Shown here: positions 7,216 to 62,241 of the stretch, piece by piece
Numbering within the stretch: the stretch's first letter is position 1
Layout of the letters: every line of letters begins with the position of its first letter
Source: Arthrobacter hankyongi
Lineage (GTDB): Bacteria; Actinomycetota; Actinomycetes; Actinomycetales; Micrococcaceae
Direction of reading: 5' to 3'
NCBI RefSeq assembly: GCF_022012395.1
Contig: NZ_JAKLTQ010000010.1
Location: 1 to 64,000 of the forward strand
Length of the DNA: 64,000 nucleotides
The notes under the pieces: model-generated
The model's input: only the letters and a program-made list of their open reading frames with translations
Database searches by the model: none
Told to the model about the DNA's origin: nothing
Program-made: the position numbers and the translations under genes

Positions 7216-8576
7216 GCCGTCACCTCGGCGAAGTCGGCGGCCGGTGCGGCCGGCTGCAGGTCGACGCCGGTGTAGTAGCGGGTGCCGGCCACGTAGAGTT
7301 GGTCCGCCGGGAAGCGGGTGAGCAGCTGGCAGCCGTCCTTGGTGACCACCAGTTCCTCCTCGATGCGGGCAGCGGCGGAGCCGTCCGGGGTGGGCCAGTA
7401 GGTCTCCATGGCGAAGACCATGCCCTCCTGCAGCTCGATGGGGTGATCGAAGGAGTGGTAGCGGCTCATCAGCGGCCGTTCCCACAGGCCCAGGCCGATG
7501 CCGTGGCAGTACTGCAGCCCGAAGGCCTGTTCCTCGGTTTCGAAGCCGAAGTCCTTGGCGGCCGGGAAGTGCTGGACGATGTCCGCGCTGGAGGCGCCGG
7601 GGCGGACCTCGGCCATGGCCAGGTCCATGAACTCGCGGGCCTGCTTGTAGGCGTCGCGCTGGGCCATCGTGGCGGAGCCGACGTTCAGGGTCCGGTAGTA
7701 GCAGGTGCGGTAGCCCATGTAGGAGTGGATGATGTCGAAGTACGCGGTGTCCCCGGGGCGGATGAACCGGTTGGAGAACACGTGCGGGTGCGGGCTGCAG
7801 CGTTCCCCGGAGATGGCATTGACTGCCTCGACTTCCTCCGAGCCGTTCTCGTAGAGGAACTTGTTCACCAGCGCGACGGCGTCGTTCTCCTTCACGCCCG
7901 GGCGCAGGAAGCGGTACAGCTCCTCGTACGCCCCGTCTACGAGTGCGGCGGAGTGGTTAAGCAGGGCGACCTCGTCCGGGGTCTTGATGGTGCGCGCCTC
8001 GAGCATCAGGTGGTTGCCGTCCTCGACGGTCAGGCCCTCGGCCTCGAGCGCGCGCAGCACGGGCAGTTCGACGACGTCGACGCCGACGGGCTCTCCGGCC
8101 AGGCCGTGCTCGCGCAGGATGTCGGCGATGCGCTTGGCGTTGGCGGCTTCGATGCCGACCTCGGTGGGGATGGCGCCGCGCCAGGTGGAGACACCGGCGC
8201 GCCAGTTCTCCTCCGGCAGCCACGGGGCGAAGCTCTGGTGGGTCTTGGCCGCGGATCCGATGTCCCACAGGATCGGGGCCTGGCCGCGCATCAGCAGGGC
8301 GCAGCGGAAGTACTTGTCCCGGGCCCAGTTCCCGATGTGGGTGGCGGTGGTGTAGCGGATGTTGTTCATGTCGAACAGCACCAGCGCCCCGAGGTGGGAC
8401 CGTTCCAGCTGTTCCATGGCCTTGGCCAGGCGCTCGGTGCGCAGCCGGTCCATGTTGACGCGGTTCTCCCAATCGGAGGCGGTGGCGTCGCCGGGCGAGG
8501 CGATCGGGTACGCGCCGTGGGTGGCCTGGTAGAAGTTCGGAATGCTGCGGCGCTGGCCGTTGTTGGGGGTGCACAT
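7212..8576 (-). CDS. M24-family (creatinase/aminopeptidase P-fold) protein with altered metal site
   Basis: Encodes 454 residues. The N-domain is creatinase-like (LVLFDMNNIRYTTATHIGNW), followed by a pita-bread catalytic domain. M24 enzymes normally bind two metals through Asp, Asp, His, Glu, Glu. Here Asp281, His358, Glu391 and Glu406/407 can be matched, but the second Asp is replaced by Cys292 (GYRTCYYRT where GYxxDxxRT is usual). It may therefore be a single-metal or non-peptidase enzyme, as known for creatinase and the DMSP lyase DddP in this fold. AAGGAG upstream of the ATG supports the start. It lies between transketolase and dehydrogenase genes, so a catabolic hydrolase or lyase role is likely. 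The Cys may be a feature of a whole subfamily. Confidence 0.8.
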   Translation of the reverse strand: MCTPNNGQRRSIPNFYQATHGAYPIASPGDATASDWENRVNMDRLRTERLAKAMEQLERSHLGALVLFDMNNIRYTTATHIGNWARDKYFRCALLMRGQAPILWDIGSAAKTHQSFAPWLPEENWRAGVSTWRGAIPTEVGIEAANAKRIADILREHGLAGEPVGVDVVELPVLRALEAEGLTVEDGNHLMLEARTIKTPDEVALLNHSAALVDGAYEELYRFLRPGVKENDAVALVNKFLYENGSEEVEAVNAISGERCSPHPHVFSNRFIRPGDTAYFDIIHSYMGYRTCYYRTLNVGSATMAQRDAYKQAREFMDLAMAEVRPGASSADIVQHFPAAKDFGFETEEQAFGLQYCHGIGLGLWERPLMSRYHSFDHPIELQEGMVFAMETYWPTPDGSAAARIEEELVVTKDGCQLLTRFPADQLYVAGTRYYTGVDLQPAAPAADFAEVTA

Positions 8577-8604
8577 GGTTTCTGCTCCTTACGTGGATCG
8601 GGGG

Positions 8605-9639
8605 TTAGACGGGGGCGTATTCGCCGGTCGCGGCCGGCGCGACCGGGGCCTGCGGGGGATTGTCCCCGCGGCCCATGGCCGACCAGGCGGCGTCGATCAG
8701 GGCCTGGGTGCCCAGCCCGTACTTTTCGAAGAGGTAGGGCGCGTTCAGGGATCCCTCGCCGAAGGTGTCGGCGACCCCGACGCGGCGCATGGGCCGGCCC
8801 AGGCCGGCTTCGGCGAGGACCTCCGCGACGGCCGAGCCGAGCCCGCCGATGATCGAGTGGTTTTCGGCGCTGACGACGGCGGCGGCCTGGCCGGCAGCGG
8901 CCAGCACACCGTCGCGGTCCAGCGGCTTGATCACCGGCACGTTGACCACCGAGGCGGCAACGCCGGCTTCCGCCAGCGCCTTCGCCGCGCCCAGGGCGGC
9001 GGCGAGCATCATGCCGCTGGCAAAGATCGCCACGTCGTCGCCCTCGACCAGGGTTTGGGCCTTGGTGAGGGAGAGTTCATGGGCCTCGGGGAAGATCACC
9101 GGGATTTCGCCGCGCTTCAGGCGGACGTAGACCGGCCCGTCGATGTCGGCGATGGCGGGCACCACCTGGGCGACCTCGACGGCGTCGGCCACGTCGATCA
9201 CGGTCATGTTCGGCAGCACGCGCATCAGTGCGACGTCGTCGATCGCCTGGTGGCTGGGACCGCCTGGCGTGGACAGCCCCGGCATGAACCCGATGATTTT
9301 CACGGGCAGGTTCGGGTAGGCGATCGCGTTGGCGATCTGGTCGTAGGGGCGGCGGGTGGCGAAGACGCCGAAGGTGTGGACGAACGGGGTGAAGCCGGAG
9401 CGGGCGAGGGTGCCGGCCATCGACATCATGTTCGCCTCGGCCATGCCGGCGTGGATGAAGCGGTCCGGGAAGCGGTCCTGGAACAGGTCAATCTCGCACT
9501 GGCGGGTCAGGTCGCCGGTCACACAGAGCACGTCCGGGCGTTCTTCGGCGAGCTTTGTCAGGGCCTGGCCGTAGGGCTTGAGCGTGGTGGGGTACGGGGC
9601 GGTGCGGAAGCGCGCGGCTTCCGGTGCTTGCATGGTCAC
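8605..9639 (-). CDS. Transketolase C-terminal subunit (split enzyme)
   Basis: Encodes 344 residues covering the pyrimidine-binding and C-terminal domains of transketolase/DXS-type thiamine diphosphate enzymes. Visible are the Glu-containing region HAGMAEANMMSMAGTLA, FATRRPYDQI and the HQAIDDVALMRVLPNMTV stretch. The GTG start overlaps the stop of the N-terminal-half gene (GTGA) with GGAG 5 bases upstream; an ATG two codons later is the alternative. Split transketolases are common in actinobacterial and archaeal catabolic clusters and form a heterotetramer. The pair probably transfers or releases a two-carbon ketol unit from a pathway intermediate. Pentose phosphate metabolism alone seems unlikely given the aromatic-monooxygenase neighbours. 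Confidence 0.9.
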   Translation of the reverse strand: MTMQAPEAARFRTAPYPTTLKPYGQALTKLAEERPDVLCVTGDLTRQCEIDLFQDRFPDRFIHAGMAEANMMSMAGTLARSGFTPFVHTFGVFATRRPYDQIANAIAYPNLPVKIIGFMPGLSTPGGPSHQAIDDVALMRVLPNMTVIDVADAVEVAQVVPAIADIDGPVYVRLKRGEIPVIFPEAHELSLTKAQTLVEGDDVAIFASGMMLAAALGAAKALAEAGVAASVVNVPVIKPLDRDGVLAAAGQAAAVVSAENHSIIGGLGSAVAEVLAEAGLGRPMRRVGVADTFGEGSLNAPYLFEKYGLGTQALIDAAWSAMGRGDNPPQAPVAPAATGEYAPV

Positions 9640-10475
9640 AGGGTCTCCAGGGTCCGGGTCAGTTCCGCTTCGGCGGCGGCGGCCAGCTGGGGCGGGAGTT
9701 TGATGAAGTGGCCGTCGGCATCCTCGGGCAGGCAGTCCAGGCCGTGGACGGTAGAGGTGCGGCAGATCAGCACGGACGGTTTGCACCTCTCCGAGTCGGC
9801 CTCGTGCAGCGCCGCGACGACAGTGTCGACGTCGTGGCCGTCAATGTCGGCGACGTGCCAGCCGAAGGACTCCCATTTCTGCCGCATCGGCTCGAGCGTG
9901 GTGATGCTGGAGATCGGGCCGTCGACCTGGGAGTCGTTGGCGTCGAGGATGACGATGAGCCGGTCCAGGCCGTGGTGGGCGGCGAAGATGGCGGCCTCCC
10001 AGGTCTGTCCCTCCTCGAGTTCGCCGTCGCTGATCAGCGCGTAGACCCGGCCGGCGTGCCCGCCCCGCAGCTTGTCGGCAAGCGCGAAGCCGGCGGCGGC
10101 GGACAGCCCCTGGCCCAGGGAGCCGCAGGTGTAGTCGACGATCGGCGAGCTTTCGGTGCCGATGGCTTCAAGGGGCGAGCCGTTCTTGCCGTAGCTGTCC
10201 AGCTGTTCGCGGGTCAGCAGTCCGAGCGCGCCGGCCGCGGCGTAGGGGGCGATGATGTAGTGGCCGGGCGAGCAGATGAAGCGGTCGCGGTTCCAGTCGA
10301 GATCGGCGAAGACCGCGGCGACCTGTTCGGCGCTGGAGAGGGCCTGGCCGAGGTAGCCGAAGCCCTGCGGCGCGACCATGCGGGTGGCTTCCAGCCGGAT
10401 CTGTGCGGCCAGTCGCCGGGGGTCGATGTCTGCCGGCGGTTGCCGGCGGACCGGTGACTCGAGGTCGATGTTCAC
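9636..10475 (-). CDS. Transketolase N-terminal subunit (ThDP-diphosphate domain)
   Basis: Encodes 279 residues. The GTG start at 10475 overlaps the stop of the Dabb gene (GTGA) and has AAGGAG 6 bases upstream. The thiamine diphosphate/Mg2+ motif GDG...N appears as ISDGELEEGQTWEAAIFAAHHGLDRL with Asn in LDANDSQ. GSLGQGLSAAAGFALADK and SPGHYIIAPYAA also match N-terminal transketolase halves. With the downstream C-terminal half it makes one complete enzyme. Short overlaps link Dabb, both transketolase halves and probably the M24 gene into one translational unit. Confidence 0.9.
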   Translation of the reverse strand: MNIDLESPVRRQPPADIDPRRLAAQIRLEATRMVAPQGFGYLGQALSSAEQVAAVFADLDWNRDRFICSPGHYIIAPYAAAGALGLLTREQLDSYGKNGSPLEAIGTESSPIVDYTCGSLGQGLSAAAGFALADKLRGGHAGRVYALISDGELEEGQTWEAAIFAAHHGLDRLIVILDANDSQVDGPISSITTLEPMRQKWESFGWHVADIDGHDVDTVVAALHEADSERCKPSVLICRTSTVHGLDCLPEDADGHFIKLPPQLAAAAEAELTRTLETL

Positions 10476-11411: not shown

Positions 11412-12626
11412 TTAGACGTGGACGGTGACGCCGCCGTCGGCCCCGAGCAGCAGGCGCCCGTAGACTTCCTTGCCCACCTGCGGGGTGGCGTGGGCGTGGC
11501 TGCCGCCGGTGAGGGCATCCTGGTAGATACGGTGCAGCGGGCTGGAGGCGAGGTAGCTGCCGGAGCCGGCGGCCTTCATGAGCTGGTCGAGCGCGTCGCC
11601 GATCAGGGTGACGATGGTGCCGGTGTCGTTGCGCACCCGGGCGCGGATGACCTCGTCCAGCAGTTCGCCGGAGGCGGCGGACCCGTCGATGTCCCGGCAC
11701 GCGCGGTGCATCAGCAGTTCGGCGAGGTCGATCTTGGTCTGCGCGTCGGCGGCGGCCAGCTGGTGCACCGGTGAATTGCGGGCTTCGGTGTAGACGGTGC
11801 CGGTGACGCCCTTGGTGCGCAGGCGTGCCATGGCCAGGTCGGCCGCGGCCTTGCCCAGGCCGATCTGGATGGCTCCGAAGATAATGGTGCCCTTGGGCAG
11901 GAACGGCGCGCGGGCGGCCGGCTCCATGTCGCGCAATTCGGTGCACAGTTCGCCGTTGACCATGTCCTCGAAGTACTGGACGCGGTGCTCCGGGATGAAC
12001 ACGTCGTTGACAACGACGGTGTCGCTGCCCGAGCCCTTCAGGCCCATGGGGTACCAGCTGCGTTCGACCTTCCAGTCGCCCGGGTGCACGATCGCCAGGG
12101 CGTGTCGCAGGCTGCCGTCCGGCTGCGGAGCCAGGAACCCGAGCATCGCGTGCGTGGCCAGGTAGGAGCCGGAGGCGAAGGCCCACGTGCCGGACATCCG
12201 GAAGCCGCCTTCGGCGCGCTCGGCCGTGGTCATCGGGTTCAGGATGACGCACAGCTTGGCCGACGGGTTGCCTGCCCAGACCTCGTCCTGGGCGCGCACG
12301 GGCCAGGTGGTTGCAAACCAGTTGCCGATGTTGATCAGCATGGCCGACCACGCCGCGGAGCCGTCGCCGCGGGCGAGTTCGACCAGCACGTCGGCGACCG
12401 TCCGGGTGTTCGCCTCGAAGCCGTCGTAGCGGCGCGGGACGGTCAGCCGCAGCAGCCCTTCGGCTTCCATGCGTTCGACGGCGGCGGCAGCGGCCTGCCC
12501 CTTATCGCCTTCAGCCGCGTGCTCGCGCAGCACTTCCCGAATGGAAGAAGCACGGGCAACAAGGTCAGGCGCCGGTCCCAGCAGGTCGGTGGCGGCGCCA
12601 GCGGTGGGAATATCGGTCGTGGTCAT
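11412..12626 (-). CDS. Two-component flavin-dependent monooxygenase 1 (acyl-CoA dehydrogenase fold)
   Basis: Encodes 404 residues with the acyl-CoA dehydrogenase fold used by reduced-flavin hydroxylases such as HsaA, DszC and the sulfonamide ipso-hydroxylase SadA. Visible are the N-terminal helical region with VPRRYDGFEANTRTVADVLVELARGDGSAAWS, the middle beta domain (FRMSGTWAFASGSYLATHAML, LKGSGSDTVVVNDVFIPEH), and the C-terminal helical domain ending with HATPQVGKEVYGRLLLG. It is the first gene of the long minus-strand operon, and its reductase gene follows 37 bases later. It most likely hydroxylates an aromatic or phenolic ring, possibly with loss of a substituent. The substrate cannot be read from sequence. 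Confidence 0.88.
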   Translation of the reverse strand: MTTTDIPTAGAATDLLGPAPDLVARASSIREVLREHAAEGDKGQAAAAAVERMEAEGLLRLTVPRRYDGFEANTRTVADVLVELARGDGSAAWSAMLINIGNWFATTWPVRAQDEVWAGNPSAKLCVILNPMTTAERAEGGFRMSGTWAFASGSYLATHAMLGFLAPQPDGSLRHALAIVHPGDWKVERSWYPMGLKGSGSDTVVVNDVFIPEHRVQYFEDMVNGELCTELRDMEPAARAPFLPKGTIIFGAIQIGLGKAAADLAMARLRTKGVTGTVYTEARNSPVHQLAAADAQTKIDLAELLMHRACRDIDGSAASGELLDEVIRARVRNDTGTIVTLIGDALDQLMKAAGSGSYLASSPLHRIYQDALTGGSHAHATPQVGKEVYGRLLLGADGGVTVHV

Positions 12627-12894
12627 GGGATCTCCTGGTGGTCGGAGGGTGTCCGGGGGTCGGTGTCAGTCACTCCATGCTCCGAAAAGCCGCACCGCCC
12701 GACTACGTGCCGGCAGATCAACGTTGCGCCGGTCACTGTGCGGCCGTCACGAGCCATGTATAGGTCCGCAAACAAACTGTGCTGGCAGCACAAACGCGGC
12801 GTCGTCCCTTGGCGGCGCGGGACAAACCGTTTGCCGGCAGAAGTGACATGGATCAAACTCAAAAGACCGCGATGACGCCAGTTCCGGAGGGTTG
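12627..12894. promoter_or_regulatory. Divergent promoter region with operator-like palindromes
   Basis: This gap separates the minus-strand catabolic operon from the PucR-type regulator gene. A perfect inverted repeat TGTGCTG-G-CAGCACA lies at 12778-12792, and a second one, CAAAC-C-GTTTG, at 12823-12833. For the minus strand, TATACAT (complement of 12756-12762) could be a -10 element. The -35 position would then fall on the first palindrome and has no good TTGACA match, which is what an activator-dependent promoter looks like. The PucR-type protein encoded at 12895 is the natural candidate to bind here. Confidence 0.5.
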
Positions 12895-52087: not shown

Positions 52088-52523
52088 TCTCATTTTGGAG
52101 ATGACTCTGGGACTTAATTGTGATGACTGATGGACAGCAGCGCCCGTCCCGGTTGCAGGAGAAGGCGCTGCTGTGATGTCGAGGGCATCGATGGGTTCAT
52201 CTCGATGCTTGGCGACGTGCGCGTCATACGAAAGGACCTAATACACGCGCTGCCGGCGAAGCACGGCCTGCACCGCCGCCTGACGAAGGACCTCGGTTAC
52301 ACCGGTGCCACCGGCTGGCGACATCGGCGACACGATTTAAATTAACAGTTTCTAATATTCGCTGTGGCGGGGATCGCGGTGCTAGATTCCACTTATGACC
52401 GGGAGCGCATTCCGCATCCGGCGCCCGTCGGCCACCCGGCCGGTCCGGGAATCCGCTCGACCCAGGTACGACCACCGCGGTGCCGCACTTTGGCCCCGCA
52501 AAATTCGAAGGACAGTGAGTGAT
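52088..52523. other. Gap before the replication module
   Basis: No gene is supported. An AT-rich stretch (TTCTAATATTC near 52350) could hold the promoter of the ribbon-helix-helix gene at 52524. Confidence 0.4.
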
Positions 52524-52760
52524 ATGGCTGCTACAGAACAGCGTCGGCGCGGCCGGCCAGCTATGGGCGACCGCAAATTCATTGGGTTCCGGACGGCTAC
52601 GTCCCGGGCCGAAGTCCTGGAGGAGGCAGCAAAGGCCGAGGGCATCACGATGAACAAGCTCGTCGAAGAGCTCCTGGACATCGGCTACAGGCACTGGGCA
52701 CCCGGTCACCACGAACGCCTCAACGGTCAGGAGGAGCTGCCCATCAGCCGCATCGCCTGA
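52524..52760 (+). CDS. Small ribbon-helix-helix protein, probable copy-control or rep regulator
   Basis: Encodes 78 residues (starts MAATEQRRRGRPAMGDRK). GAAGGACAG lies upstream; the frame is open further but without a start signal. The pattern KFIGFRTATSRAEVLEEAAKAEGITMNKLVEELLDIGY is a ribbon-helix-helix fold. It lies directly upstream of the replication gene with only a hairpin and a leader between, which is the place of CopG-type regulators. A second gene of the same kind is encoded at 55344. Confidence 0.75.
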   Translation: MAATEQRRRGRPAMGDRKFIGFRTATSRAEVLEEAAKAEGITMNKLVEELLDIGYRHWAPGHHERLNGQEELPISRIA

Positions 52761-52768
52761 CAACGCAG

Positions 52769-52843
52769 AAGGCCCGCACTGAGGCGGGCCTTCGAAGCAT
52801 GATACTTCTACCTGACATTGCTTGCCGGCTTTCCAGGTAGAAG
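52769..52843 (+). promoter_or_regulatory. Hairpin and leader stem-loop at the rep start
   Basis: A perfect 9-bp stem (AAGGCCCGC / GCGGGCCTT, 52769-52792) follows the regulator stop by 8 bases. Next comes a 10-bp inverted repeat (CTTCTACCTG at 52805-52814, CAGGTAGAAG at 52834-52843), whose 19-base loop contains the TTG start of rep at 52822. The layout suggests attenuation or translational control of replication. A similar arrangement follows the second ribbon-helix-helix gene at 55574-55651. Confidence 0.55.
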
Positions 52844-54807
52844 CCGATTACCAGTCGCTTCTCAGCGATTGGCCTCTTTCGCTCCTTCGAAAGAAATCCT
52901 CCGAGGGGAGTGCCCTCTTCGCATCCTCTGAAAGGAATGCCCTCATCGTACAACAGCATGCCCTTTTGCTGCCAGACACGCAGGTCAACGGCGCGTCGGA
53001 CCCGGAAAACCCCGCAACCACGTGGGCGGCCCTGGCTCCGTTGCTTGCCGGCCAGCCGCGCGTCCGGCTTTCCCGTGACGGCGGACGGTCCTACCCGCAG
53101 AAGCACGAACGGGACCTGACCGCAGCCCTGCCGTCCGTTCCCGCCGCCGTGCGCATTTTCGGCAAGGACGGCACCTGCGCCGCCATCTGCCTGGACTTCG
53201 ACTCCTCGCTGGCCGGGCCCGACTGGGTGGAGGCCGACGTGCGCGCCATCCAGTCCTGGCTGCACCGCTGCGGCGCCCGCTGGATCGAGGACTACTCCCC
53301 CAGCGGCGGCCGCCACCTCTACGTTCCGCTGGAGCGCCGTGCCACCTTCACCGAAGCCCGCGACCTTGTCGAGGCCCTGGGCGCCAGGCATCGGAGCCTG
53401 GACAAGACCCCGCACCAGAACCTGCTCCACGGTTGTATCCGTACCCCGGGCAGCCGGCACAAGCGCGGCGGCCACCAGCAGCTGGCCATGAGCCTGTCCC
53501 TGGCCTACGACGTCGCCCGCCGGCCCAACAGCTACGCGGTATGGACCGCCATGACCGCCGACCTGGCCGACGAGATCGCCGCCGTGCGTGACCTCCGGCT
53601 CGAGCAGGAGTACCGCCCCGCATTGCCCGCCGACCCGGATCCGGCGGAGCTGGGCAACAACGGAAGGATGTCGAGGGCCATGCAGCGCCTGGCGGTCTCG
53701 GGCATGTACGAGGCCGGACGGTACGGTTCCGACTCGGAGGCCCGCCAGGGCGTGATCACCGGCGCTGCCGCGGCCGGCCTGTCGCTGCTGGAGGTGGACC
53801 GGCGGATGAAGCAGGGTCTGTGGCCCGGGCTCGCCTCCTTCTACGCCCGCTACCCAGCCCGGCACCGTATGCCTGCACTGCGTAGGGACTGGAACAACGC
53901 CGTCCGTCACCTGCGACAACACGCGGGCGAAGCGCCAAGGAAGAAAGATGTAAATAAATACCCCACAAGCCAGCTACCTTCACAGGCGCGGGTCGGACAG
54001 GGTTCTGAAAATACGATGACCGACGAGAACGAGCATCGGTTCATCAGGACCTGGCGCAACGCCCTTGCCTTGGCTGAAAAGCGGTACGGGGATACCCGGG
54101 CGGGTCTGGCCAGGAAGATGGTGCTCAGGTCCTTGGGTGAGGCGGCGCATAAGTCAGCGAGCCGGTTCGTGGAATTCGGGGTCCGCTCACTGGCCGTTGC
54201 CACCGGGCTGGACCACACCACGGTCAGCTCCCACCTGCGGGCACTGCGGGCCGAACCGGATCCCTTGCTGGTCCTGATCGAGGCCGGGCGTGGAACCCGC
54301 GGGGATCTCTACCAGCTGCAGATCCCCGAACAGCTTCGGGAGCACAGCGAGGCGGCAGCGTGGCGGCGCGGCAAACTCCACGCGCTGCGGCCGGTGTTCC
54401 GGGAGCTGGGCCTGCCGGCGGCGTTTGTGTACGAGGCACTGGAACACTCCCCCACTTCCCTGTCGACAGCGGAGCTGATGCGGATTACCGGTCTGTCCCG
54501 GCCCGCGGTGGCCCAAGCCCTGGAGTCGATGGCGGCCTGGAACCTGGTCCAGCGTGACGACAACTGGTCGGTGGTGGCCGCAACGAGCCTGCGGGCCGTG
54601 GCCGAACTGCTCGGCGTCCTCGAAGCGGTGGCTGAGCAGCTGGCCCGGTACCGGGCCGAGCGGGCCGCCTGGCGGGAGTGGCTGGCCCGGCACGTCGTGG
54701 TCAGTCCGCTGCTCCCCTCTCCCGACGACGACTACCCCTGGGAGAACTTCGAGGGCCCGCCCGACGAGTGGACACTATCCGACATGTCATTCGGTCTGGC
54801 TGGATGA
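52822..54807 (+). CDS. Replication initiator with primase-like (AEP) domain
   Basis: Encodes up to 661 residues. The TTG at 52822 is a guess; no later start codon with a good site was found. Residues about 80-260 contain an archaeo-eukaryotic primase-like core: CLDFDSS (catalytic acidic residues) and GRHLYVPL (His motif), with RTPGSRHKRGGHQ. The middle part has a PriCT-like region with KQGLWPGLASFYARYP. The C-terminal part has winged-helix features (SLAVATGLDHTTVSSHLRALRAEPDPLLVLI and MRITGLSRPAVAQALESMAAW). Proteins with this layout are replication proteins of actinobacterial plasmids. 9-bp repeats begin 118 bases after its stop. Confidence 0.8.
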   Translation: MPAFQVEADYQSLLSDWPLSLLRKKSSEGSALFASSERNALIVQQHALLLPDTQVNGASDPENPATTWAALAPLLAGQPRVRLSRDGGRSYPQKHERDLTAALPSVPAAVRIFGKDGTCAAICLDFDSSLAGPDWVEADVRAIQSWLHRCGARWIEDYSPSGGRHLYVPLERRATFTEARDLVEALGARHRSLDKTPHQNLLHGCIRTPGSRHKRGGHQQLAMSLSLAYDVARRPNSYAVWTAMTADLADEIAAVRDLRLEQEYRPALPADPDPAELGNNGRMSRAMQRLAVSGMYEAGRYGSDSEARQGVITGAAAAGLSLLEVDRRMKQGLWPGLASFYARYPARHRMPALRRDWNNAVRHLRQHAGEAPRKKDVNKYPTSQLPSQARVGQGSENTMTDENEHRFIRTWRNALALAEKRYGDTRAGLARKMVLRSLGEAAHKSASRFVEFGVRSLAVATGLDHTTVSSHLRALRAEPDPLLVLIEAGRGTRGDLYQLQIPEQLREHSEAAAWRRGKLHALRPVFRELGLPAAFVYEALEHSPTSLSTAELMRITGLSRPAVAQALESMAAWNLVQRDDNWSVVAATSLRAVAELLGVLEAVAEQLARYRAERAAWREWLARHVVVSPLLPSPDDDYPWENFEGPPDEWTLSDMSFGLAG

Positions 54808-54924
54808 GGAACCCGCCGCGACACGCCGTAAAGATAACGATTTCCTGAATACGTTTCCCTCTGAGTGCCCTCTGCATGGCGGGAAGACAGTCGGCAGACC
54901 AGCTCCTGCGTGACAAAAGGAGGA

Positions 54925-55032
54925 AATGGTTCCGTTGGTTCCGTTGGAATCCGACCCTTTTGACCCTGATTGCATATCGTTCGGGGGACTGAAAACCGGT
55001 TCGGCGAAATTGGTTCCATTTCTGGCGTTGGA
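54925..55032. repeat. Short run of 9-bp repeats downstream of rep
   Basis: AATGGTTCC (54925), GTTGGTTCC (54934) and GTTGGAATC (54943) follow each other in exact 9-base register, and related units recur near 55008-55030 (TTGGTTCCATTTCTGGCGTT). They belong to the same family as the large array at 57.0-58.5 kb. The place just after rep suggests origin iterons. The remaining gap between 54808 and 55343 has no gene. Confidence 0.6.
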
Positions 55033-55343
55033 ACTATGGGTTCGCAGCTTGACCCTGCTCTGTCAACGAACGCCGGGCACAGTCTGCTGCCGGCTTTCCC
55101 GCAGAATCACGGGCCAAAAAGCCTGTAACAGCTTGCCGCGGCGTAGGCGCACCCGGTGGTAGGTTCGGGAACAGTTGGAAAAAGTTACAGCCTCGCTGGC
55201 GGCAACCGGTGGAGGCTGAACCCAGGCCACCCGGCCGCAACCAGCTGATCGGTCCGCCGGATCCCGGTGGAACCGGAGCGTCTGCCAAACCGGACTCCGG
55301 AATGGCCCAGGCACCCGCGTGGGATAAGTAGGACAGGGGCCAC

Positions 55344-55568
55344 ATGGCTGCGCCAGGAAACCGCGGATGCGGCCAGCGAAGCAAAGGCGAACGCCGCTTC
55401 GTTGGAACCCGTGTGCCCGTAGCGGACCACGACCTGTTGGTCGCCGCCGCGGCCGTGCACGGCTTGACTGTCAGCGAGTACGTGGCAGCTGTCCTGACCG
55501 AGAAGCTCCGGAGCGAACACGTGGATCAGACTCAGGAGGGGCTGCCTATCGGGCCCAAGGCCACTTAA
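55344..55568 (+). CDS. Second small ribbon-helix-helix protein
   Basis: Encodes 74 residues. The pattern ERRFVGTRVPVADHDLLVAAAAVHGLTVSEYVAAVLTEKL fits a ribbon-helix-helix fold. It differs in sequence from the 52524 protein but has the same size and the same downstream hairpin plus leader, with no rep gene after it. It may be the orphan regulator of a lost second replicon, or a repressor acting on the nearby repeats. Confidence 0.65.
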   Translation: MAAPGNRGCGQRSKGERRFVGTRVPVADHDLLVAAAAVHGLTVSEYVAAVLTEKLRSEHVDQTQEGLPIGPKAT

Positions 55569-55573
55569 GCACG

Positions 55574-55681
55574 GGAAGGCCTGCACGAGGCAGGCCTTCC
55601 GATGACGCCTCCAGCTCTACACCTACTGCTTCCCGGCTACCAGGTGAAGAGCTTCCAAGCAGCTCCCGGCCGGGAGCTGCT
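55574..55681 (+). terminator. Hairpin series after the second ribbon-helix-helix gene
   Basis: There are three elements: a perfect 11-bp stem (GGAAGGCCTGC / GCAGGCCTTCC, 55574-55600), a 10-bp stem with one mismatch (CTCTACACCT / AGGTGAAGAG, 55615-55651), and a perfect 24-bp palindrome at 55658-55681. The first two resemble the leader of rep at 52769-52843 in order and spacing, and share the GCTTxCCGGCT...CCAGGT core. Confidence 0.6.
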
Positions 55682-57027
55682 CTATAGCTGACCCCGTGGA
55701 GGGTCCCTCTGCTATGCCCCCAACTCTACACACGGGTGTGGGCGTATCAAGGGGAGATGACCGGCGCGTCGGTTTTGTCATGCCCCTAAAGGGGGTGTGT
55801 CCCCGCTGTGCACCGATACTGTCGCCCGGACCATTGGTGCCCGGCACGGCCTTGGCCTGCTAGAGCCGGCAGCAGGAAGGATGCAGCACACGCCAACTTC
55901 GGCACGCCATCACGCCATGCGGGAGTGCCGGGTCATTCAGGCTAGCCTAAACCGCCGGCATCCACTGTGGCTGCTTCACCGTGCTTACCCTGCTCACATC
56001 CGATCATGGAGAACACTGCCAAGTCACGTGGGGCCGCTCCGACGTCCGATTCTGTCCCAGTCTCACCCAGGGCACCACCCATCCTGCTTCTATGTGGATC
56101 TCGTGTGGCTACCCTCGGACCGGTTCGCCTGGCAATGACAGCGCCTTGCCAGGCTCCCCCTTGAGGTTCCGTTGGCGCACTCCCCTACCGGATTGGTCCG
56201 GTTCGGCAACCGGTGGTATCCATCGGTTATGGCCAGCTGCGGCGGTGCCGGCAGGAGTACCAGCATTTGTTCGAACCGGAGCACCCGGTATCGTCAGCCG
56301 GAGCGGGATCCCCTATCCGCACAGCAGTTGCTTCGCCGCGGACGATGCAGCAGCACACCGTCTAAACCTTCGGTCTATACGTCCGGCTTTTTGGTCCGGC
56401 GGCACTACGACGGGGCAAGGCTCCAGATCGGCATCGAAGATGCCTGCCAGTTCCTCCGAGGAAGGGTATCGTTTAGCCGCGCCGGCTGTCCGCCGAAGCT
56501 GCTGAGTGCCCCGAGCGCAGCCGATCCGGACAGAGCTCGGAGTGGTTGGAGACATTGAGTTGGGCGGGAAGCCCGGGACAAATCTGGACGCGTCACGTAA
56601 AGAGAGAATGCCCGTAAAGCTGCGGGTGCCCCGGAGACACCCGGTCGTACTTCCGATCCGGCTAAGTCGTGCACGCATTCGAACGTGCCACAAGCGACTT
56701 CTCGGGAGCCACGGGGCTAAGCAAGCATGTGCGCCACAGCAGCAGCTCACTGTCGCGTCCGAACCGGCGAGGCCACCCAAGCCCCCCGCGCACTACCTGT
56801 CCTGCCCGGAATATAAGGGTCCCACTCACCACTCCCCTACCGTCTGGCCGCTGATGCCGGCGTCCGGGCAGATCGTTCAGACCCGGCCGGCGGAACGGCA
56901 CGCTCACCTGGCACTGAAAGTCGTGGCTGGCAGGCTTGCGTCCCCGACACCGCTATTGCCCCTGAACGCACGGACTGCAGAAGGTGACGGAATTTCCTCA
57001 GAGCGAACGGCAGTAATGAAATCAATA
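55682..57027. other. Gene-free DNA, first part
   Basis: Frames are short or of unlikely composition, without start signals. Scattered CCGGT/ACCGG-type inverted repeats are seen near 56190-56215. Base composition is lower in GC than the catabolic genes. Nothing else is recognised. Confidence 0.45.
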
Positions 57028-58470
57028 GAACCATTGGATCCGGCTATCCGTCGCGGAAAAATGGAACCATTGAAGGCAATACGGGCAAAGCTGGGAATGA
57101 TTCGGGCGTCTTAGACCCTTGGCAGCATCCGCCACAACCGCTGGCGCCAGTGGCAGTAATGGTTCCATTATCTTCGTTGGAAGCGGGCCCGCCGTCCGAC
57201 GGCCTGGACGCGTGCACTCCTGAAACGGAATCACACAACAGTCGGGTCGGGTAGGAACCAGCCAAGGAAGTAATGGTGCCATTACTGGCTTTTGGTTCTT
57301 GGCCGGCCGCTACACGCGCGCCTATGGGTGGAGGCCTTGGAAGAATAGCTGTTAATGCTGGAATGCTGTCATTACCGGTTTTGCCTCCAATGGTTCCATT
57401 GCGTCCGCGAGGCAGCCCCGAGGTGCCACGCCTGGCTGGTAATGGAAGTATTGACTCCATTGCTTCCAGGGATGACGATACAGCGTGACGTTTACGCCTT
57501 ACCCCAAGGTCACAAAATAGATCCATTGATTCCTTGAGACGCAAAGCCAGTAAGGGAACCGTTAGTTTCAATTCAGGTAATGCATGCCACGGGGTCGGCC
57601 GACAGCAGTGGATCGGGCAGGGAGGAACTTAAGGAACCTTTACCTCCAGAGCCCGCAACCGAGCCGAGTAGCTGAACCCAGGTGACTTGCGCGGCCGGGC
57701 TTGTGTTGGCGGAACGGACACCATGGAAACAATGACAGCATTGGAGGTGTTGCCTTAAAAGCTTCCTTTAATGGACTTACTGCCATATCGGTCTGCGTTG
57801 TCCTTGCTCCTCTTCGCCGAGGCGTCGCTGGCAATGTCCCTAATGCTTCCATTGCTTCCATCCATAAGTCTTTGGAGTTTCTGCGGTCACAACGGCAATG
57901 GAAGCATTTACTCCTTTGCTTCTTCGCGGCAGTTGATTCGGTCGGACGAACTGGATGCCCACATGATCCTAGGCCTGGAAATTGATCCGTTAGTTCCAAT
58001 ACGCGCAGTGCGGGCATTGGAGCCATTGCTTCCAATGCCCGCAATGCATCCTATACCGTTGCCCGACAGCGAGCCGGCCGGGCGGGAAGCAAAGGAACCG
58101 TTGCCGCCATTGCCGGCAACGACACTGGAGCCGGTCGGGCCCTCGGCACAACCAGACGCGAGCTGCTGTCGATGCAGTCCGAGCCAAGGATGCATCACCG
58201 AGCTGGGCTGTGTTGCCTCCAATGGTTCCTTTAATGGCTTTGCTGCCCCGTCCGCCGGGACCACCGGCGTCAATGGTTCCATTTCTTCCAACGCATTCAC
58301 CAGAGGGTTGGGAAGTAATGGAGGAAACGGAGGCAATGGAGCCACAGGCGGTTCGCCGCCAGAGGCGACGGGCGACATGCCCGCCTTGTCGCCAGCCCAT
58401 GTGTGGAAGCAACACCGCCAATGGATGTAATGCCATTAAAGGAAGCATTTACACCATTGGAAGAAAAGGG
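57028..58470. repeat. Degenerate 9-bp-period array upstream of parA (putative centromere/iterons)
   Basis: About 1.4 kb of non-coding DNA is filled with variants of [A/G][A/T]TG[G/C]nnCC, many in exact 9-base register. For example ATTGGAGCC, ATTGCTTCC, AATGCCCGC and AATGCATCC run without gaps at 58016-58051. Exact repeats include AATGGTTCC at 57158, 57389, 58221 and 58272; ATTGCTTCC at 57459, 57851 and 58025; TTGCCTCCAATGGTTCC at 57381 and 58213; and GGAAGCATTTAC at 57900 and 58441. AATGGnnCCATT palindromes read the same on both strands. The array ends about 140 bases before parA. It fits a partition centromere or an iteron field. Confidence 0.7.
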
Positions 58471-58613
58471 GTGTGTCGCAGGCGTGTCTTCCGGGCATGC
58501 GCGGGGAGCACAGCTAGGGTTAAGGGCAGTCGGTGCTGGCTCGACGCTCTCTCGGCAGAGGTGAGCTTTCCGCACCCTGAAACCAGAATTTGGCTATGGA
58601 AGGTACTGAAACC

Positions 58614-59441
58614 ATGCCGGCAAAAATCGTCGCCATCTGCAACCAGAAGGGCGGGGTCGGGAAGACCACGCTAGTGACCGGACTGGCCGAAATGTTCTCC
58701 CAAGTGCTCGAGCTGCGCGTCCTGGTGGTCGATGCTGATCCGCAGTACAACGTAACCTCGGCCTTGGGGGTCGAGCAGCCGGAGTTCACCCTGAACGATG
58801 TCCTGGCGGGCGACCCGGACAACAACCAGAAGATCATGCCCGGAGTGGCCGCTGAGGCCGTCATGCTTGCCGGCGACGCCTGGCAGCCCCGGTTGGCCCG
58901 GGATGAGTCCTTCCCGGCCCTGCACCTGATCGCCGCGGAACGAAACCTCGCAACGCGCGAACGGGATTCGATGATCGCCCGAGAGCGGCGCCTGCGCACT
59001 GCGCTGAAGGGCATGGTTGACGAATTCGACATTGTCCTGATCGACTGCCCGCCGTCGCTGGGCCTGTTGACCGTGAACGCCCTGACCGCAGCCACGCACG
59101 CGCTGCTGGTGACCGAACCTCGCGTGTCCTCCGTGGAAGGCCTCAACGAAATCGCGACCACCATCGGCGAGGTCCAGGAGAACCTGAACGAGGACCTGGT
59201 CCCCGCCGGTGTGGTCATTAACAAGGTGCGCAGGGGCCGCAGCGACCAGATGCACTGGATCGAACAGGTCCACGAAAAGTGGGGCGATTTGGTATTGGAC
59301 CCGCCACTGCCGGACAGGGAGTTGTTCTCCAAGGCACAGGCGGCCGCAGTACCGCTGAGCAGCTACGGCTTTGCAGCCAATGCGTTGCGTAACGACCTGG
59401 AGAAGCTGGCCCGGACGATCTGGGATGGAGTCCAGCTGTGA
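58614..59441 (+). CDS. parA: ParA partition ATPase
   Basis: Encodes 275 residues. The ATG at 58614 has GGAAGG 10 bases upstream; an ATG six codons earlier is possible. The deviant Walker A is QKGGVGKTT at about residues 10-18, the Walker A-prime is VVDADPQYNVT and Walker B is VLIDCPPSLG. There is no N-terminal HTH, so it is a type Ib-like short ParA that does not itself bind the operator. It segregates the plasmid with the partner encoded immediately downstream and, presumably, the array upstream. Confidence 0.93.
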   Translation: MPAKIVAICNQKGGVGKTTLVTGLAEMFSQVLELRVLVVDADPQYNVTSALGVEQPEFTLNDVLAGDPDNNQKIMPGVAAEAVMLAGDAWQPRLARDESFPALHLIAAERNLATRERDSMIARERRLRTALKGMVDEFDIVLIDCPPSLGLLTVNALTAATHALLVTEPRVSSVEGLNEIATTIGEVQENLNEDLVPAGVVINKVRRGRSDQMHWIEQVHEKWGDLVLDPPLPDRELFSKAQAAAVPLSSYGFAANALRNDLEKLARTIWDGVQL

Positions 59442-60301
59442 GCCCGGCCCAACCGCCTGTGGCCCGCGGCGGCAGTGACAACCCGCTGGCCAAGTTCAAA
59501 CGCGGCGGCCTGAAGAAGGCTGCCGGATCCAGCGTGGTCGCCGAGATGATCAGCTCCCCGCAGCCCGAGCAGCCTGCCGCCGTCGTACCTGCCCCGCAGC
59601 CGCCCGTCCAGGCCGCCGACGCGGCACCCGCTGCGGCACCGGCATCCAATGCTGCCCCTGCCTCCGAACCGGCGCCCTCCGTCTCCGCTACGGTCCTTGC
59701 CGAGAGCCCACCGGTCCCGGGCCCAGAGGCGCTGCGTCCGGGACCGGAAACCCCCCAGGCCCGCGAGGAACAGGCTCCAACGCGACCGTCGCCGCAGCCG
59801 GTCCAGGCCCCGCCGCACTCCCAGGTCGACGTCCCGGCCAAAGTGTCTCCGAGCGGACAGTACGACGCTGCGGCAATTGCCGGAGCACACCTGCCGCCGG
59901 CCCAGCCCATCCAGCCAGCGGCTGCGGGATACCTGCAGCCGGTCCAGGCCCCGGTCCCGCAGTATGCCCCGCCCGTGGCCGCGCCGGTTCAGCAGCCCTT
60001 CCCGGCAGCTGTCCCGCAGTACGAACAGCCGGTGACCGCCCAGGCGCCGGCGGCCGTCCCGGAACAGCCGGCACCCCCGAAGTCGAAGAAGACCAGCTTC
60101 CACCAGCCCGTGGGCTCCGGGGACAGGATGCGCTCGACCTACAACGCCACACGGCACCTGACGAAGTACCTGACCATGTCGGAGTTCATCTGCGCCGCCG
60201 TGGACAAGATGTGCGCCGAGCTGGAAGAGAAGTACAACGACGGCGAACGCTTCGACGCGGACCCCGGCGCTGTCCCCAAGGGACGTCCGGTCGGTTCTTG
60301 A
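59438..60301 (+). CDS. ParB-like centromere-binding protein with long Pro/Ala linker
   Basis: Encodes 287 residues. The GTG start overlaps the parA stop (GTGA). Residues 15-30 (NPLAKFKRGGLKKA) may be the ParA-contacting tail. About 180 residues of Pro/Ala/Gln-rich linker follow. The last 65 residues (KTSFHQPVGSGDRMRSTYNATRHLTKYLTMSEFICAAVDKMCAELEEKYNDGERF) look like a ribbon-helix-helix DNA-binding domain, not an HTH ParB. RHH-type partners such as ParG and omega bind arrays of short tandem repeats. The long disordered linker is unusual. Confidence 0.78.
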   Translation: MSPAQPPVARGGSDNPLAKFKRGGLKKAAGSSVVAEMISSPQPEQPAAVVPAPQPPVQAADAAPAAAPASNAAPASEPAPSVSATVLAESPPVPGPEALRPGPETPQAREEQAPTRPSPQPVQAPPHSQVDVPAKVSPSGQYDAAAIAGAHLPPAQPIQPAAAGYLQPVQAPVPQYAPPVAAPVQQPFPAAVPQYEQPVTAQAPAAVPEQPAPPKSKKTSFHQPVGSGDRMRSTYNATRHLTKYLTMSEFICAAVDKMCAELEEKYNDGERFDADPGAVPKGRPVGS

Positions 60302-61066: not shown

Positions 61067-61477
61067 ATGACGGAGAAGGGGAGCGTGAGGACCGTGAGTA
61101 TTTCCACCGGGATCGGTGCCGCCCATGCGGGCACCGCGCGGTTGGGCATCCGGGAGATCGTCCGCCAGCTGAACGGTGCCCTTGGTGCCACCCTGGTTGC
61201 GGCCCTGGCCGGGGCCAGGGACCCGAAGATCAGCTACAAGTGGGCCCGGACCGACGGGCCCGAACCCAAGCCCGAGGCCCAGGCGCGCCTGATGCTTGCC
61301 CACCGGGCCTGGACTGCGGTCTCGAGCGTGGAGGGGGAGCACGTGGCCCGTTTGTGGTTTGTCGGGGCCAACCCGTGGCTGGGGGAGATCTCCCCGATCG
61401 AGGCCATCAGCCGGCTCGAGGCCAAAAAGGTCATGGACGCCGCCGCGGCCATGACCGATGACCGGTTCGCCGGTTGA
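61067..61477 (+). CDS. Antitoxin with DUF2384 (MbcA/ParS-type) domain
   Basis: Encodes 136 residues from the ATG at 61067; a GTG at 61085 after GAAGGGGAGC is possible. The N-terminal part is HTH-like (ARLGIREIVRQLNGALGATLVAALAGARDPKISYKWAR). The C-terminal part (VEGEHVARLWFVGANPWLGEISPIEAI) is the Xre-MbcA-ParS toxin-binding domain. The stop overlaps the toxin start (TTGA). It should neutralise the RES toxin and repress the operon. Confidence 0.85.
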   Translation: MTEKGSVRTVSISTGIGAAHAGTARLGIREIVRQLNGALGATLVAALAGARDPKISYKWARTDGPEPKPEAQARLMLAHRAWTAVSSVEGEHVARLWFVGANPWLGEISPIEAISRLEAKKVMDAAAAMTDDRFAG

Positions 61478-62241
61478 GGCGCACCTGCACCGCGACGGGA
61501 CTGGCCCTGGTCGACACCCGGCTGGAGGGGTACCGGATCGCCAAGAGCTCCTACGGGCCGGTCAGCCCGCGGCCGAGGCCCGCTTCCCCGGGCGCCGACC
61601 GGTCCGGCTGGTCGCGCTTCGACACCCCGGGCAGCACCATCTATCTGGCTGGGGATAGGCGCACCGCGTATGCCGAGACCCTGTCCATCACCCGGGTCGG
61701 GAACCGGTTCCGCTCCGCGGTATCCTTCGCCGCCGCCCAGTTCGGCATCCCCGAGGCCGAGGCGCAGGCGCTGGTCGAGGAGGACTGGACCCGCAACGGC
61801 AACATGGTGCCTGGCTGGCTGCCGGCCAGCTGGCGCGAGGGGCGGCTGATGTACCGGCTGCGCATGGACGGCCCCGCTTCCTGGGTTGACCTGACGGCGG
61901 CCGAGTCCGTCGCGGCCCTGAACCGCCACCTCGGACCGGCCTTCGACGAGGAACTGAACATCCCGCAGATCACCCTGGGTGCCCTGACCGGGGAGAACCG
62001 TGAAGCCACCACGCTCATCGCCCAATGGATCCGCGAACAGGTCCTGGACGACGGCAGCTATGCCGCCGGCGTCCGGTTCCACTCCAAATTCGGCGGCGGC
62101 ACCTGCTGGGCCTGGTGGATGCGCCGCACCGACGACGGCCTCGGCCCCGAACTCGTGGAGATCATCGCCGAGGACGAAATCCACCCCCGCGACCCGGATC
62201 TGGACTACGTCCTCAAGCTCTACGGCGCCTCCTGCCGCTGA
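61474..62241 (+). CDS. RES-domain toxin (NAD+-degrading type)
   Basis: Encodes 255 residues from a TTG that overlaps the antitoxin stop. RES landmarks are Arg21 (EGYRIAK) or Arg48 (WSRFDTPG), Tyr57 (STIYLAG), Glu68 (TAYAETL) and a Ser in VRFHSKFGGGTCW. Known RES toxins such as MbcT phosphorolyse or hydrolyse NAD+. It is somewhat longer than the usual 160-220 residues. The pair most likely stabilises the plasmid. Confidence 0.85.
   Translation: MRRTCTATGLALVDTRLEGYRIAKSSYGPVSPRPRPASPGADRSGWSRFDTPGSTIYLAGDRRTAYAETLSITRVGNRFRSAVSFAAAQFGIPEAEAQALVEEDWTRNGNMVPGWLPASWREGRLMYRLRMDGPASWVDLTAAESVAALNRHLGPAFDEELNIPQITLGALTGENREATTLIAQWIREQVLDDGSYAAGVRFHSKFGGGTCWAWWMRRTDDGLGPELVEIIAEDEIHPRDPDLDYVLKLYGASCR

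Follow-up and report, generated by a model that had tools for sequence, protein, structure and literature searches.

A kilobase-scale array of degenerate 9-bp units as probable partition site of a type Ib parAB cassette in Arthrobacter hankyongi

The region between rep and parAB in the window (the first 64,000 nucleotides of contig NZ_JAKLTQ010000010.1, assembly GCF_022012395.1) holds a dense array of degenerate 9-bp units at positions 57006–58464. With a probability of roughly 0.85, we interpret this region as the parC partition site belonging to a type Ib parAB cassette, probably read by a ribbon-helix-helix (RHH) ParB of the pCXC100 type. The sequence data comprise a 9-bp phase, its organization into 14–16 tracts with about 80–88 units of the type A[AT]TG[CG]nn[CG]C, homology of the encoded proteins, a gene arrangement that is kept among relatives and absence of the phase beside a similar Rep where the Par cassette differs.

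The 9-bp period reported in the initial annotation was clearly recovered by autocorrelation against shuffled controls. Across 57028–58470, the self-match at lag 9 was 0.367 versus 0.253 in 500 dinucleotide-preserving shuffles (z = 10.2), and it was echoed at lags 18, 27 and 36 (z = 4.4, 4.7 and 3.7 against the same type and number of shuffles), while the highest value among non-multiples of 9 was z = 3.8 at lag 8. Lags 3 and 6 remained at background and lag 7 fell to z = −3.6. Some coding stretches of the window reached similar lag-9 values, but there lags 3 and 6 were high, too. Complementarily, A[AT]T triplets were paired at exactly 9 bp in 20 cases versus 1.4 expected (z = 16.6), and between lags 3 and 45 no lag besides multiples of 9 exceeded z = 1.3 in this pairing analysis. 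From either of two seeds, an EM model with 16 columns converged on the identical, strand-symmetric pattern, cA[AT]TG[CG]nn[CG]CA[AT]TG, in agreement with the strand-symmetric cores described before. The unit consensus, A[AT]TG[CG]nn[CG]C, is self-complementary and replaces the earlier [A/G][A/T]TG[G/C]nnCC, of which the 9-bp length stands. As a consequence of this self-complementarity, ‘direct’ and ‘inverted’ units are largely one thing and their orientation is poorly defined.

A unit model built from the array assigned 80 units to 14 tracts of three to nine units between 57060 and 58464, compared with a mean of 1.1 and a maximum of 6 units when the fixed model was run on 100 shuffles. The tracts lie at 57060–57104, 57140–57184 and 57263–57307 (five units each), 57344–57406 (seven), 57441–57467 (three), 57516–57587 (eight), 57722–57784 (seven), 57824–57859 (four), 57897–57923 (three), 57980–58060 (nine), 58091–58126 and 58212–58247 (four each), 58272–58352 (nine) and 58402–58464 (seven). 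The 17-bp exact repeat previously noted at 57381 and 58213 is present, with one copy in the tract from 57344 and the other in that from 58212. Retraining the model on each sequence yielded 88 units in 16 tracts over 57006–58613, versus a mean of 5.2 and a maximum of 20 in 12 shuffles. As the same procedure with a 12-bp model still collected 46 units from the window array, the specificity of the unit counter for the period is incomplete, and by itself it provides no clean test of period, whereas autocorrelation does (z = 1.2 at lag 12). Tracts occupy about half of 57006–58464, and their start positions modulo 9, worked out by hand, revealed no common 9-bp register, so that each tract represents a separate run. 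What had been described as a single 1.4-kb array in strict register therefore consists of genuine units but lacks continuity, being made up of 14–16 separate runs.

Scanning the entire 140,095-base contig with the unit model identified the array as the sole dense cluster. Seven tracts of at least three units started outside it: four far off, one of four units at the array edge (57006–57041), which moves the start slightly ahead of the 57028 given originally, and two after rep. The latter match the units that had been pointed out at 54925 and comprise a four-unit tract directly after rep (54916–54951, with the stretch 54927–54947 also detected by TRF) and a three-unit tract at 55009–55035 from the unit-model scan. 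Both (54916–55035) may be a former rep-side end of the array. The non-coding DNA ahead of the array (55569–57005) contained no 9-bp unit according to the retrained unit method, and nine units at 12 bp.

The array ends about 150 bp ahead of parA, with a leader at 58471–58613 (forward strand) in between. parA (58614–59441, forward strand) encodes a ParA-type ATPase in which AAA_31 spans residues 4–195 and no N-terminal helix-turn-helix or other DNA-binding domain is found, as is characteristic of type Ib. Directly downstream, and overlapping the parA stop by 4 bp with its start, parB (59438–60301, forward strand) encodes a short, conserved N-terminal segment, a long Pro/Ala/Gln linker and a C-terminal domain (60071–60301, forward strand), the predicted DNA reader. 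This domain is homologous to PDB 3NO7 (E = 1.2e-7 for the window protein alone, 9.2e-21 as a 13-member profile), which we take to be the C-terminal domain of the pCXC100 ParB; the entry itself is titled ‘putative plasmid related protein’. Against PF18064 (‘Centromere-binding protein ParB C-terminal’), the window ParB scored 16.1 bits and thus under the cut-off of 27, which was exceeded by nine out of nine other ParBs scanned, including three from loci with the same gene arrangement (L001, L003 and L005 in our numbering of loci). Pfam and NCBIfam scans of the window ParB returned no match to the ParB/Spo0J family, that is, to ParB of the type Ia or chromosomal helix-turn-helix kind. A single-sequence AlphaFold model of the ParB C-terminus was poor (pLDDT 71, pTM 0.37) and depicted a single long helix instead of an RHH fold.

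On the other side of the array, the Rep-like protein (52822–54807) carries a winged-helix domain (MarR_2) and is not matched by any replication family of Pfam or NCBIfam; relatives of it occur in 104 plasmid records, and we infer that it is a replication initiator. Beyond parB, the gene of an RES-domain protein (61474–62241) comes after that of a small protein lacking any Pfam match, and the two genes (61118–62241 together) look like an RES-type toxin–antitoxin pair adjoining the partition genes.

The site had been proposed as a new kind of partition site and compared with omega alone. A partition site is indeed the best-supported reading and the difference in unit length from omega holds, but the ParB is homologous to that of pCXC100 (Leifsonia xyli subsp. 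cynodontis, type Ib, PF18064), which is the nearer relative and a precedent. As Huang et al. in 2011 and Yin et al. in 2006 are said to have reported, the pCXC100 centromere consists of about nine uninterrupted 9-nt direct repeats. The window shares with pCXC100 the homologous ParB C-terminal domain and repeats that precede parA, which in pCXC100 reportedly are 9 nt long as well. It differs by its approximately 80–88 units in 14–16 tracts over 1.4 kb, set against the nine or so uninterrupted repeats reported for pCXC100, as well as by its self-complementary unit, a ParB linker of about 170 residues and a site placed between rep and parA. ‘New kind’ is hence only partly right, since 9-nt repeats for this ParB family have reportedly been published, while the kilobase scale, the division into tracts, the rapid turnover and the period swap described below appear to be new. 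Passages of PMC5016525 place the pCXC100 site upstream of parA and mention its direct repeats. The tested pCXC100 site was not among the best 40 of 47 plasmid matches of 3NO7 (best 51%), and the titles and abstract openings of the papers listed by literature searches yielded no description of arrays like this in Arthrobacter plasmids. The omega/parS system of pSM19035, with its 7-bp units, resembles the window in that a small RHH protein, in our case a predicted one, reads tandem short units; a 7-bp unit model, however, collected just 5 units from the window array versus 88 at 9 bp. According to parts of PMC5016525, omega binds direct and inverted repeats alike at three sites of 7–10 iterons.

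Searching relatives for the array beside the same parAB, as suggested in the initial annotation, revealed 19 further rep–array–parAB loci. ParA searches returned five plasmid records and, in a sample of 395 genomes from the family, 16 close matches, a count that includes the window; as one genome match corresponds to plasmid record L005 and was counted once, this resulted in 20 loci with the window. These 16 genome matches all had E ≤ 1.1e-90, with the next match at 7.5e-36. The order Rep homologue, array stretch, parA, parB was found at all 20 loci, with Rep divided between two reading frames in L004 and L005, an annotated gene overlapping the rep end in L001, and a small RHH-like gene plus two annotated genes between Rep and array in L004. 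In the window and L043, the interval between rep and array (55344–57005 in the window) holds a second small RHH-like gene as well as additional DNA; among the other 18 module loci, only L004 has an RHH-like gene there. Lag-9 autocorrelation reached z ≥ 4.1 at 18 out of 20 loci and was weaker in L002 (1.9) and L052 (2.2). With the retrained unit model, every locus exceeded the maximum of its own 12 shuffles, yielding 30–88 units in 5–16 tracts (30–79 units for the 19 loci besides the window). The arrays of L055 and L056, from two different genomes, are 99.96% identical, leaving at most 19 independent loci. ParB length varies between 160 and 287 residues in the module, with a variable Pro/Ala/Gln linker joining the conserved N-terminal segment to the C-terminal domain, yet all 20 arrays are large; the long Pro/Ala linker noted earlier is thus not tied to the large array. 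At two loci, the module sits in contigs of 3.0 Mb (L053) and 3.7 Mb (L056) and may therefore be chromosomally integrated. A scan of genome contigs with the ParA alignment, whose patterns were generic Walker-type motifs, gave at least 80 loci; owing to these patterns, none of the 80 listed lay above 40% identity, and none was used.

At the DNA level, searching with the array returned two matches only (33–34 bp, E = 0.1 or worse), and searching with array plus parAB matched nothing but a 45-bp stretch of parA. The commonest 6-bp core between the A/T triplets varies between loci: GGAACC or GCTTCC in the window, L043, L001–L004, L048–L050 and L054, ACTTCC in L044–L046, GGTACC in L051–L053, AGGGGC in L047, AGAGGC plus ACCTCC in L005 and GCCAGC in L055 and L056. 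In a forced alignment of the window with L043, whose ParA is 93% identical, the leader was 85% identical, the tracts 55% and the spacers 40%, the latter being, in our judgement, about the level of unrelated sequence in such an alignment. Together with the differing cores, this contrast indicates that phase and density persist while the sequence turns over.

To relate the array motif to the proteins, we compared 6-mer profile distances between arrays with protein distances by Mantel tests on 17 loci, with L044, L048 and L055 left out beforehand as relatives of L045, L049 and L056. Comparisons involving Rep covered 14 loci (without L043, L050 and L051, whose Rep frames were truncated), with L004 and L005 entering with 300 Rep residues. 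In RHH proteins, the beta-strand is the DNA reader, and eight ParB beta-strand columns were picked from the alignment before the test. Over the 17 loci, motif distance correlated with ParA (0.70), the ParB beta-strand (0.63) and the whole ParB domain (0.59). The beta-strand retained 0.45 (p = 0.0005) with ParA controlled, compared with 0.24 (p = 0.03) for the helices, and 0.31 (p = 0.006) with Rep controlled on 14 loci, where the whole ParB domain dropped to 0.08 (p = 0.30) and the helices to 0.00. Controlling for the beta-strand alone left ParA with 0.57, and Rep, too, kept part of its correlation (see below). As co-inheritance of the module predicts these remaining ParA and Rep correlations, the covariation test supports ParB as the reader of the array but does not prove it.

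The rival that survives best, although we consider it improbable, holds that the units are replication iterons for the Rep encoded just upstream and that the array is the origin or part of it. The position between rep and parA at all 20 loci, the two small tracts directly after rep and the correlation of motif distance with Rep (0.67 on 14 loci, 0.53 after beta-strand control) would all fit iterons. Natural combinations of a similar Rep with another Par cassette speak against them. Thirty-one plasmid records carry a Rep 60–80% identical to that of the window, four of these also with a ParA 60–80% identical, and eight of the other 27 were examined. In these eight swap plasmids (Rep 62–67% identical, no close ParA), 17 out of 17 stretches around rep and par showed lag-9 z ≤ 2.2, the highest value coming from 227 bp after rep in L062; the array thus did not go with Rep in any of the eight examined, of 27 available. 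A paired A[AT]T scan of the same loci never exceeded three pairs in 600 bp, which lies in the range of the shuffles, but this test has low power and likewise scored the positive locus L003 at three. Instead of a 9-bp array, L062 (pYJN5-1, Rep 67% identical) contains an 8-bp array of 95 units in 1,342 bp (lag-8 z = 7.6, both values being inflated by a duplicated stretch of more than 100 bp) upstream of its own, different ParA. This array, at 11459–12800, lies ahead of that ParA and also of a ParB-like protein for which Pfam gave no match. Swap locus L067 is repetitive without a clear unit, with 16–24 units at 7, 8, 9, 11 and 12 bp (17 at 9 bp versus 24 at 8 bp and 21 at 11 bp), and in L068 (pASPHE301) a strongly repetitive stretch with lags 11 and 22 and words such as ACCACACC follows its own parAB (8544–9686). 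Conversely, L006, L007 and L011 carry parAB of the window ParB’s family with 8, 9 and 19 units upstream of parA, and no Rep homologue was detected there within the 7.6–12.8 kb examined. The missing 9-bp phase beside a similar Rep with another Par cassette in the eight swap plasmids examined, on which we reject iterons, and the arrays lacking a detected Rep together indicate that the period follows Par, not Rep.

It is very unlikely that one of the small RHH-like proteins (52485–52760 or 55344–55568) binds the array as a regulator of copy number or transfer. These proteins adjoin rep, an array of repeats is a plausible target for an RHH protein, and small-RHH distance correlated with motif distance over 17 loci (0.43), retaining 0.27 (p = 0.006) with the beta-strand alone controlled. 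The partial correlation vanished, however, with ParA (0.02, 17 loci) or Rep (−0.08, 14 loci) controlled, for which reason we reject this operator role. Moreover, a 76–78-aa protein is annotated before rep in six out of eight swap plasmids devoid of a 9-bp array, as judged by annotation rather than sequence comparison.

Outside the module, the 9-bp signal is patchy in more distant relatives of the ParB family. At E = 1e-6, just 19 of the 396 genomes scanned from the order contained PF18064. Of 24 genome places listed, 20 were examined and nine were dropped for want of a ParA on the expected strand. The remaining 11 included clear 9-bp arrays in L172–L174, two or three units in L156, L157, L163 and L164, no 9-bp signal in L159, L169 and L170, and a signal in L155 that was not counted, because the ParA start seemingly lies inside coding sequence. 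Among 11 plasmid loci of the family, seven had A[AT]T pairs at 9 bp within 250 bp before parA, while no such pair was present over this distance in L009, L010, L071 and L072. In two short-array cassettes (L073:3889–3963 and L074:541–628), two or three units extend into what is presumed to be the parA ribosome-binding sequence, and the last unit holds GGAGGT, which resembles a ribosome-binding site and suggests possible autoregulation by ParB.

An operator role may hence be part of the family’s history, in line with a further alternative, namely that the array does carry ParB but mainly as a sink setting parAB expression or as a barrier to related incoming plasmids. We regard this as even less likely than binding by the small RHH-like proteins: the window array is far larger than an operator and stops well short of parA, and centromeres ordinarily cause incompatibility as a side effect. 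Finally, although open reading frames of up to 219 aa cross the array, a degraded or unannotated coding repeat of three codons can practically be dismissed, given that these frames lie on both strands, that third-position G+C is 0.47–0.62 in the four long ones versus 0.81–0.83 in parA, parB and rep, as befits the non-coding status assigned initially, that the unit is strand-symmetric and that the array is mostly unalignable to that of L043 despite the closely similar ParA.

For the preferred reading, a partition site bound by ParB, we propose that adjacent ParB dimers would line up along a tract, each occupying a single 9-bp unit and, the unit being self-complementary, in either orientation. 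The 14–16 tracts would then serve as distinct platforms for cooperative loading. The N-terminal segment of ParB is, by analogy with other type Ib proteins, the likely ParA activator, and the N-terminal peptides of many dimers could reach and stimulate ParA on the nucleoid, thereby moving the plasmid. Selection would hold the phase and density of units rather than exact sequence or position, so that arrays would drift fast and the core would change between plasmids along with ParB, as expected of partition-based compatibility groups.

More broadly, and with somewhat less than even confidence, we suggest that Micrococcaceae plasmids combine one Rep lineage with interchangeable, kilobase-scale centromeres: dense, degenerate arrays whose unit length is set by their own ParB (9 bp for the PF18064 type, 8 bp in pYJN5-1) and whose phase and density are kept, while their sequence turns over in about the time in which ParA changes by 7%. 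The closest parallel for Rep-sharing plasmids split by partition type appears to be Clostridium perfringens, where, according to parts of PMC9426499, plasmids with similar Rep carry different ParMRC partition families linked to compatibility. That system is of the ParM/ParR kind and its binding specificity was measured, whereas in the window’s plasmid group specificity is deduced from sequence. If our suggestion is true, such a centromere is read by number and phase, not by exact sequence, and compatibility groups form rapidly.

Overall, an unannotated 1.4-kb stretch becomes a testable candidate centromere. In the portions of an Antarctic Arthrobacter plasmid survey considered here (PMC6305408), a replication module was recognised in one plasmid only and only predicted parS sites were mentioned; with so few modules recognised there, the conserved rep–array–parAB module should help to annotate a poorly known plasmid group. 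The 20 natural variants, which differ in core at a constant 9-bp phase, and the natural swap, in which a similar Rep accompanies another period, allow two questions to be put to the test: by what means a small RHH protein stays specific when its repeats are degenerate, and how new compatibility groups are founded by partition sites.
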